This document shows positions 5,966 through 44,395 of a stretch of 64,000 nt of DNA, piece by piece (the stretch's first letter is position 1; every line of letters begins with the position of its first letter). The stretch covers positions 1 to 64,000 of the forward strand of contig NZ_QQRR01000001.1 of assembly GCF_003439925.1 (NCBI RefSeq), in the 5' to 3' direction. Position numbers and translations under genes: made by a program. The DNA comes from Haloprofundus halophilus. GTDB taxonomy: Archaea > Halobacteriota > Halobacteria > Halobacteriales > Haloferacaceae. The notes beneath the pieces are model-generated. The model worked only from the letters and a program-made list of their open reading frames with translations, ran no database searches and was not told where the DNA came from.

Positions 5966-6523
5966 ATGCGAAAACCAGCATTCGGGAGAGCAGCAACACG
6001 AACACGACGGGCAGTGTTGCGAGTCGTCTGGCCGGCCGTCGAGTCGGTTCGCTCGGGAATCGACTGGACCGAGACTCGACTCGCCTCGGAGCGGTCGAGT
6101 CGGTCCTGGCAGCGCGTCTGGCTCACGCGAAACGAGGTACGGTGGCGCAAGGCCGGCACCGTCGTCGAGTGTTTCGGCGTCGCCGACGGCTACCTCGCGA
6201 CCGTCGAGTACACCGACAGGGACGTGACGTGGCAACTCACGAAAGGACCCGTTCCGCTCGCCAGTGCACTGGCCGTCAGCGCCCTCTATCTCCAGTACGG
6301 AGTGACGCCGCACGTCGACACCGACGGTCGGATGTTCGTCGCCGTCGTCGACGGCCGCCCCGTCGAAGCGTTCCGGAACTTCGCGGAGAAACCGTTCGAG
6401 TACAGCTATCTCGACGGCTACAGTTCGCTCGACGAACTCCCGAACTGGGTCGACCGGACCGATATCGAATCCGTCTACAGCCGACTCGAAAAACGGCACC
6501 GACGCGAACTCCCGCCGGAGTGA
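5966..6523 (+). CDS. Hypothetical protein
   Basis: 185 aa, family not recognised. The N-terminus is basic (residues 1-25, RKPAFGRAATRTRRAV). The middle has a strand-rich segment (VWLTRNEVRWRKAGTVVECF) and a hydrophobic helix PLASALAVSALYLQYG around residues 96-111. The C-terminus is charged (RLEKRHRRELPPE). Codon use and acidic/Arg-rich composition resemble its neighbours. No signal peptide is clear. It is flanked by repeat-bearing gaps on both sides and has no evident operon partner. Confidence 0.5.
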   Translation: MRKPAFGRAATRTRRAVLRVVWPAVESVRSGIDWTETRLASERSSRSWQRVWLTRNEVRWRKAGTVVECFGVADGYLATVEYTDRDVTWQLTKGPVPLASALAVSALYLQYGVTPHVDTDGRMFVAVVDGRPVEAFRNFAEKPFEYSYLDGYSSLDELPNWVDRTDIESVYSRLEKRHRRELPPE

Positions 6524-6633
6524 GACCCCCGGTCTGATCGACTGTCGGATATCGTCTATGACTCTCGTCGTGCATCCGATTCCCGAAAAGTCACTTCTCT
6601 CCGAGCGTTGGCGCCAGAAAAATCGCTTCCCCC

Positions 6634-6684
6634 GAACGTCGACCCCAGAAGAACGTCGACCCCAGAAGAACGTCGACTCCAGAA
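6634..6684. repeat. 17-bp tandem repeat (3 copies)
   Basis: Three units at 6634, 6651 and 6668, consensus GAACGTCGACCCCAGAA. The 340-base gap between 6524 and 6863 otherwise holds no gene that I can support. Confidence 0.85.
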
Positions 6685-6863
6685 GGGTCACTCCTTTTCG
6701 AGTGTCGACCCCCGAGTCCCCCGTGTCGGTCACGCCGTCGACCGGCCCGACGACGACACCTTCGGACTCGCGGACGTGAAGTTCCGCCCACGGTGCGCGG
6801 TCATATCGACTCGGTTTCGAGAGAGTCGGAAGCGGTTTTCCGTCGGCGTTCCTACCAGGGACG

Positions 6864-15400: not shown

Positions 15401-15474
15401 CCGCTCTTAGCTCAGCCTGGCAGAGCAGCCGACTGTAGATCGGCTTGTCCCCCGTTCAAATCGGGGAGAGCGGA
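15401..15474 (+). tRNA. tRNA-Tyr (GTA anticodon)
   Basis: Cloverleaf folds cleanly: acceptor CCGCTCT (15401-15407) pairs with AGAGCGG (15467-15473), discriminator A at 15474. The anticodon loop CTGTAGA gives anticodon GTA at 15435-15437. The T-arm contains GTTCAAATC. Starts with C1 as in archaeal tRNA-Tyr. No intron. CCA is not encoded. Confidence 0.97.
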
Positions 15475-15676
15475 CTGAACTTCACCACTCGCGAGCGGAG
15501 CGAGCAGTGGTGAATGTGAAGGACTGTTCTCCCCGATTTGGGCCGAGAAGTCGCAGCCCGGGAGCGAACGTACTGAGTGACCCGGAATGCCTTCCGGAGT
15601 TCAGATCACCGCGGCTTCGCTTTCGCTCGCCACGAGCCCTCGTTCACTACGTTCACGAGGACGGGGAGAGCGGACT
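15475..15676. repeat. Hairpin-rich segment with duplicated tRNA-Tyr 3' end (att-like)
   Basis: The last 13 tRNA bases plus two (CGGGGAGAGCGGACT, 15462-15476) recur exactly at 15662-15676, 200 bases downstream. A 13-base inverted copy of the tRNA T-arm/acceptor (TCTCCCCGATTTG) is at 15528-15540. Between them lie stem-loops: 15481-15515 (TTCACCACT / AGTGGTGAA), 15558-15585 (CCGGG / CCCGG) and 15638-15660 (CCTCGT / ACGAGG). Direct repeats of a tRNA 3' end are the hallmark of tyrosine-integrase attachment sites, but no integrase gene is present. Confidence 0.6.
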
Positions 15677-16201: not shown

Positions 16202-16291
16202 ACAATCCGCACAAATCACACAATCTTTGTGAATTGTACAATTTGTACAAATTGTGCAAACTCTACAAACTTCACAATTTTTAGAATTTGT
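16202..16291. repeat. Ten degenerate 9-bp repeats, AT-rich
   Basis: Ten consecutive 9-base units in register from 16202 (consensus ACAAATTGT; e.g. ACAATTTGT, ACAAATTGT, ACAAACTTC). Two perfect palindromes result: AATTGTACAATT at 16232-16243 and AATTTGTACAAATT at 16240-16253. The tract is strikingly AT-rich for this genome and lies between the thioesterase stop and the queD promoter. Confidence 0.8.
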
Positions 16292-44153: not shown

Positions 44154-44227
44154 GGGCCGGTAGCTCAGTTAGGGAGAGCGACGGACTCTTAATCCGTCGG
44201 TCGGGGGTTCAAATCCCTCCCGGCCCG
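44154..44227 (+). tRNA. tRNA-Lys (CTT anticodon)
   Basis: Acceptor GGGCCGG (44154-44160) pairs with CCGGCCC (44220-44226), discriminator G. Anticodon stem ACGGA / TCCGT encloses loop CTCTTAA with anticodon CTT at 44188-44190. T-arm has GGTTCAAATCC. A TATA-like CTTTTAGC lies about 27 bases upstream. No CCA encoded and no intron. Confidence 0.97.
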
Positions 44228-44395
44228 TTTTCTGCGAACGACGCGAGACCGAAGGTCCCGCAGGCCGTGCAGGCGACTTTTAGGTCGCCCGCAGACAGAG
44301 TGAGCAGTGAAAACGCCACAGAGGAGTAGGAGTAGAGAAGTCGCAGCCTGCGAGCGGAGCGAGCAGGTCCGTCTTCGCGTAGTTCAAATCCCTCC
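44228..44395. repeat. Hairpin-rich segment with partial tRNA-Lys copy
   Basis: The 14-base T-arm/acceptor word GTTCAAATCCCTCC (44207-44220) recurs at 44382-44395. A hairpin GGCGAC / GTCGCC (44272-44289, loop TTTTAG) lies in between. It also holds GAGAAGTCGCAGCC (44335-44348) and GCGAGCGGAGCGAGCAG (44350-44366), both exact matches to words downstream of tRNA-Tyr. Confidence 0.6.

Follow-up and report, generated by a model that had tools for sequence, protein, structure and literature searches.

The segment that follows the tRNA-Tyr(GTA) gene of Haloprofundus halophilus belongs to a class of structured non-coding units that occurs across the haloarchaea, at tRNA 3′ ends and joined to copies of the tRNA tail, and it is one damaged, nested example of that larger pattern. 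The features below lie in the window, by which we mean the whole 64,000-nucleotide stretch analysed (contig NZ_QQRR01000001.1, from a genome of 3.47 Mb).

15401–15474, plus strand: tRNA-Tyr(GTA), found by ARAGORN (which sets its end at 15475) and Rfam RF00005; discriminator A73 is 15474
15454–15474, plus strand: the first of the two copies of the 21-nt repeat, covering tRNA positions 53–73, delimited by per-position identity at 53 loci
15475–15526, plus strand: hairpin 1 of the window unit, TGAACTTCA family, from its fold and homologues
15528–15540, minus strand: 13-nt inverted tail copy (TCTCCCCGATTTG), taking in the start of the P1 left arm
15535–15607, plus strand: hairpin 2 of the window unit, matched by covariance model R1 (E=1.7e-11)
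15535–15544, part of hairpin 2: P1 left arm, GATTTGGGC
15549–15556, inside hairpin 2: conserved AGTCGCAG
15599–15607, part of hairpin 2: P1 right arm, GTTCAGATC, which is also the first piece of the second tail copy
15608–15661, minus strand: nested palindromic repeat of 54 bp, splitting the second tail copy
15662–15674, plus strand: remainder of the second tail copy, CGGGGAGAGCGGA, positions 61–73; the 15-nt match extends to 15676
44154–44395, plus strand: second instance in the window, at tRNA-Lys(CTT), whose tRNA starts at 44154
44324–44390, plus strand: hairpin 2 of the tRNA-Lys(CTT) unit
44382–44395, plus strand: 14-nt tail copy of the tRNA-Lys(CTT) unit, GTTCAAATCCCTCC

The original prediction held that a 15-base tRNA end recurs exactly at 15462 and 15662, with a 13-base inverted copy at 15528 and stem-loops in between. 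Both copies of CGGGGAGAGCGGACT are indeed present (15462–15476 and 15662–15676), with no further exact match in the window; when up to three mismatches were allowed, 10 matches were found against 7.4 expected, which is not above chance. The inverted copy occupies 15528–15540 and the hairpins fold as claimed. The extent of the repeat had to be revised, since the 15-base match is real but the true block comprises 21 nt, tRNA positions 53–73 (15454–15474); only 15 bases match between the two copies because the 54-bp palindromic insert splits the second one. Part of this insert matches a repeat that is dispersed elsewhere in the genome (L003–L005), and similar inserts were seen at L002, L008 and L041. 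In Haloprofundus marisrubri both tRNA-Tyr loci (L008/L041 and L179/L194) carry the same kind of nested insert, indicating that it is older than the split of these species. Hairpin 1 of the window folds at −20.9 kcal/mol in the sense and −16.2 in the antisense direction, and the TGAACTTCA family to which it belongs also occurs in tRNA-Tyr units from Haloferax, Halogranum and elsewhere. The genome has another tRNA-Tyr gene (C1:1252822–1253105, minus strand), followed by a segment 91% identical to that of the window. The similarity begins at the tRNA and does not extend past the second tail copy, so that this locus is a tRNA paralogue bearing a unit of the same type.

To follow the pattern across the genome, tRNA loci were located by the Rfam tRNA model and each was retrieved with its flanks (n=46). 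A search at other tRNAs had been proposed, and it was productive: at least 27 of the 46 genes are followed, no more than 500 bp away, by a strong copy of their own 3′ tail, compared to none of the 46 with such a copy upstream, so the tail duplication is not due to chance. Own copies in these 27 loci scored at least 12, with a maximum of 25, while the tails of other tRNAs averaged 6–11 downstream. The tRNA-Pro(CGG) gene, which lies outside the 46-gene set, carries a unit as well. Analysis of 53 tRNA loci from this genome and its relatives showed that the duplicated block extends from G53 in the T-loop to the discriminator base at position 73, with per-position identities of 0.85–1.0 within the block and mostly 0.2–0.5 beyond it, and that both limits are exact for every kind of tRNA examined. 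On average, proximal (first) copies differ from the tRNA at 0.9 of 21 bases and distal (later) copies at 2.5.

Units measure 52–296 bp with a median of 115 (101 distinct units, 32 kinds of tRNA), in agreement with the earlier remark that such a segment is too small for an integrase. They occur singly or in arrays, downstream of the tRNA and co-directional with it, and follow a set order: hairpin 1 straight after the tRNA, a linker, the complement of the T-loop, hairpin 2 and the 53–73 copy. Because the complement spans only positions 53–63 in most units, the 13-nt inverted copy of the window marks the strong end of a general feature, and a long inverted copy as a tRNA-specific trait was rejected on the same grounds. 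Hairpin 2 is conserved at AGTCRCAG and ACCGTCT, one on each side. An alignment of 26 hairpin-2 sequences displayed strong covariation, and R1 is a covariance model of this hairpin. In the 101 distinct sequences, aligned by fitting to the model so that the counts lean towards it, 96.8% of cells pair and 183 cells show two-sided changes, compared to 46 in shuffles (0 of 500 shuffles as high).

The stems of hairpin 2 do not all behave alike. Changes in the left arm of P1 produced G-U at 64 of 413 sites and A-C at 12 of 442; two of the nine P1 positions supply most of these wobble changes, and a weaker bias remains without these two most variable positions (about 18 of 227 versus 11 of 441, counted by hand). 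This excess indicates that the sense strand is the folding one. P2 and P3 are drawn from a small set of interchangeable palindromes, and their pairs show no G-U excess (6 G-U, 9 A-C and 737 Watson-Crick). The sense fold was stabler than the antisense fold in 36 of 48 cases for hairpin 2 and in 34 of 43 for hairpin 1. The evidence is thus mixed, with P1 behaving like an RNA or single-strand DNA stem and P2 and P3 as swapped palindromic modules.

Searches with R1 showed how widely the units are distributed. The model matches 283 of 292 Halobacteria genomes (97%) and 72 of 76 genera; in a phylum-wide sample all 32 matching genomes belong to Halobacteria, with no match in 163 genomes of other classes. 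This genome has 16 matches, 15 of them downstream of a tRNA, tRNA-Pro(CGG) included. Across three genomes, 65 of 87 matches lie on the same strand as a tRNA and no more than 1 kb downstream of it, where about 0.6 would be expected, and those away from tRNAs include displaced units with recognisable tail remnants. One genome (G059) has 15 of its 36 hairpin-2 core matches at non-tRNA sites and contains a dispersed family that has the hairpin-2 core but lacks P1. In the same genome, loci L195–L199, L204, L073 and L074 are tRNA-remote repeats in which a CCTCGTGAGCGAAGCGAACGAGG-type hairpin precedes the hairpin-2 core. Elsewhere, a solitary hairpin-2 core sits between two genes with neither tRNA nor tail copy (L140, G000:C2:632125–632188), and the trailer of a tRNA-Ala(CGC) contains direct and inverted tail copies across roughly 370 bp (L075, G038:C1:771000–774200). 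The nine Halobacteria genomes negative for R1 include one that is probably Haloquadratum walsbyi C23 (G009). The pattern of tail units is not mentioned in the H. walsbyi C23 genome paper (PMC3119063), perhaps because that strain has no R1 matches.

In one genome (G018), arrays contain two to eight units, and that of tRNA-Arg(CCT) reads A B C B B A C′ B. Copies of A are alike, as are copies of B, but C and C′ differ from each other through divergence, which implies that the copying of A and B took place separately from C. Identical tandem units were found at L145 and L147, and mosaic arrays that combine one hairpin 1 with differing hairpins 2 at L146 and L148. Pairs of hairpin-2 cores exceeding 80% identity make up 9.9% of comparisons between tRNAs of one genome and 1.6% of those between genomes. 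The mean within-genome identity of these cores is 0.573, compared to 0.538 after permutation (0 of 300 permutations as high), a resemblance signal that is dominated by G018. At the locus equivalent to that of the window, congeners have a related unit (G002), a different unit (G001), a degenerate unit (G004) or none (G003). As regards the check suggested for the window locus, an empty site in a relative, G003 lacks the unit, but its flank is not alignable, and no precise pair of filled and empty alleles with alignable flanks was found among the congeners and Haloferax.

An orthologous tRNA-Tyr locus is occupied by the same unit in six Haloferax species. Mean identities there are 0.90 for hairpin 1, 0.91 for hairpin 2 and 0.94 for the tail copy, compared to 0.71 on the upstream side of the tRNA and 0.52 beyond the unit. 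The substitution-only drift named beforehand as evidence against integration is thus seen at this one locus, but in H. mucosum and H. marinum the units at this site are different ones. The higher conservation of the hairpins relative to their flanks suggests either constraint or concerted evolution. In Haloferax sulfurifontis, two tRNA-Tyr loci (L174 and L180) have species-specific changes in common in hairpin 1 and not in hairpin 2, a distribution suggestive of gene conversion between paralogous loci.

Units or their hairpins are also found at the far ends of larger tRNA islands, one of them beside an integrase-like gene. Two tRNA-Tyr islands, of about 5 kb (G056) and about 14 kb (G018), have tail copies at a distance, and in both the far copy adjoins an open frame whose start, by eye, resembles a tyrosine integrase. 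Units are also present on the far side of the G056 island, and in two of these the hairpins split the T-loop of an accompanying partial tRNA-Tyr. In L060 (G056:C1:2227700–2235500, about 6330–6690), split partial tRNA-Tyr copies lie by the integrase-like gene and are followed by three consecutive tail copies. The units may move with such islands or be used by them. A viral or plasmid origin was rejected: the window unit had no match in 50,697 phage records, one pattern had none in IMG/VR, and plasmid records yielded two short haloarchaeal matches.

The explanation we tentatively prefer, and to which we give somewhat less than even weight, is that the units are cassettes without autonomy, placed at the T-loop by a putative recombinase acting in trans. 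The copy in the window would then be old and nested, with a counterpart at the other tRNA-Tyr gene of the genome. Array shuffling, the sharing of modules between tRNAs, distal decay and variable occupancy all favour mobile cassettes. They would be moved in trans by a site-specific recombinase, most probably one of the tyrosine type, with strand exchange taking place inside the T-loop (GTTCRAATC); each insertion would then have to bring or leave a full 53–73 tail, thereby keeping the tRNA functional. New units would enter beside the tRNA and displace older tail copies outward, where these would be free to decay, and homologous recombination and gene conversion would subsequently amplify, mix and homogenise the units. 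In favour of such insertion we count the exact limits at 53 and 73, the presence of copies at 27 of 46 genes versus none upstream, the distribution of R1, the reordered arrays, the finding that the same locus is empty, filled or otherwise filled among congeners and in Haloferax, and the occurrence of units or their hairpins at the distant ends of larger tRNA islands. Against it we count that no trans-acting recombinase was found. Two tyrosine recombinases of this genome pass the Pfam cut-off while a third falls short of it, and two clear enzymes are too few for each of at least 27 decorated tRNA genes to have its own, so that one enzyme would have to serve many tRNAs. Further points against are that 52–296 bp is short for a circular intermediate, that six Haloferax species keep the same unit with hairpins above flanks, that a cassette bearing its own tail leaves the spread between different tRNAs unexplained, and the lack of a precise allele pair noted above. 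The cassettes might form a class-wide tRNA-anchored system with a universal T-loop insertion site, a hairpin closing each cassette and arrays recording successive insertions, an extension that we regard as somewhat doubtful; if true, it would be a tRNA-anchored analogue of the integron, run by a putative general recombinase.

The main rival explanation is that the units are functional RNA, with read-through from the tRNA giving a structured trailer whose hairpins and tail copy would have a role in termination, regulation or the processing of the tRNA 3′ end, one option being a T-arm decoy. Hairpin constraint and the strand bias in one stem make this possible, if on balance unlikely, and it would also account for the covariation of hairpin 2, the G-U excess in P1, the stabler sense folds, the near-exclusive placement of units on the tRNA strand and the hairpin conservation in Haloferax. 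However, P2 and P3 have no G-U excess, and their few alternative palindromes suggest that modules were replaced, rather than that an RNA evolved step by step. Most wobble changes in P1 come from just two of its positions, a DNA hairpin formed by the sense strand would yield the same bias, orthologous tRNAs can be without a unit, and Rfam 15 returned no match at gathering score other than tRNA.

An improbable alternative dispenses with dedicated mobility altogether, so that an ancient tail duplication spread solely by unequal crossing-over and gene conversion between trailers. The identical tandem units, the mosaics sharing hairpin 1 and the apparent conversion between the H. sulfurifontis tRNA-Tyr loci are all consistent with such a history, but hairpin 2 is common to tRNAs with otherwise unrelated tails and trailers, and in G059 its core occurs at non-tRNA sites too. 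Least probable, and already disfavoured, is that the units derive from integrative elements or proviruses which used the tRNA 3′ end, lost their interior through later deletion and left their attachment sites as remnants. Tail copies are typical of integrase sites, and the G056 and G018 islands have an integrase-like gene by their far copy. Separate deletions, however, would not yield one conserved hairpin pair with the same inner structure at many tRNAs in 283 of 292 genomes, and this origin is also opposed by there being just two clear tyrosine recombinases in this genome and no match to the window unit in the phage records. A simple two-point integrase remnant was rejected on the genome-wide tail count and the class-wide R1 search. 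The original prediction had left the choice between a remnant and a miniature, trans-mobilised element. The first of these, taken as the remnant of a single integrated element, fails in view of the same structured unit after many tRNAs in 97% of haloarchaeal genomes, while the second gains from the small tRNA-flanked units, the arrays, the exchange between tRNAs and the unit-free congener locus (G003, L017).

Several known systems resemble the units in part. Elements and proviruses with tyrosine integrases, including SNJ2, pNOB8 and related types, insert at tRNA 3′ ends (reviewed in PMC8371274). As in these, a direct repeat of the 3′ part of the tRNA flanks the segment, the tRNA stays intact and, in some genomes, units adjoin real islands; unlike them, the units measure only 52–296 bp, contain conserved hairpins of their own in place of an integrase gene, and occur in arrays at many of the tRNAs in a genome. 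Arrays of integron cassettes (attC/attI; for archaeal integrons see PMC9668308) likewise consist of tandem cassettes at a fixed anchor site, each closed by a hairpin that is conserved in structure, variable in sequence and alike within a genome. The units, in contrast, are without gene cassettes, their anchor is the tRNA gene itself, and the GTTCRAATC at the repeat start and junction does not fit the attC core GTTRRRY / RYYYAAC. IntI (TIGR02249) scored above cut-off in none of 20 genomes, with a control set that was also without a positive, and integron membership was rejected on the core sequence and the lack of IntI. CRISPR arrays share fixed-length direct repeats between units and the decay of older repeats, but the units here vary in length, share conserved hairpins and have a repeat that differs per tRNA; CRISPR-like ruler insertion was rejected on the variable lengths. 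Casposons are known to target tRNA 3′ ends, a likeness shared by the units. REP/BIME palindromes are similar in being extragenic hairpins, as are the dispersed hairpin-2 core of G059 and the palindrome nested in the window copy, but the units are tied to tRNA 3′ ends and tail copies. Haloferax volcanii reportedly possesses tRNA-like elements (t-elements; Hoelzle 2012, as cited in PMC7714728), which are comparable as haloarchaeal tRNA-derived structures outside functional tRNA; the units differ in copying only the 3′ 21 nt, beside their own tRNA, and in having two extra hairpins. A bulge-helix-bulge intron was rejected by eye owing to unfitting internal loops, and the part consulted of a paper on the splicing endonuclease (PMC7714728) makes no mention of such elements.

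The class appears to be absent from Rfam and from the open literature searched; no description was found in open full text, and an earlier one is possible in subscription papers. A structured class that occurs in 97% of sampled haloarchaeal genomes, and in this genome next to more than half of the tRNA genes, is relevant to what makes tRNA 3′ ends hot spots of integration, to archaeal tRNA 3′ processing and to the spread of non-coding cassettes. Since the genus of Haloferax volcanii, a haloarchaeon in standard laboratory use, has tRNA-Tyr units, the question should be directly testable there.

Apart from the units, we observed an AT-rich intergenic run of repeated TTTGTACAATT-like motifs at 16205–16290 of the window, which may be an operator. 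It lies upstream of a queD-like gene (16380) that belongs to a queD/queE/queC-like cluster.
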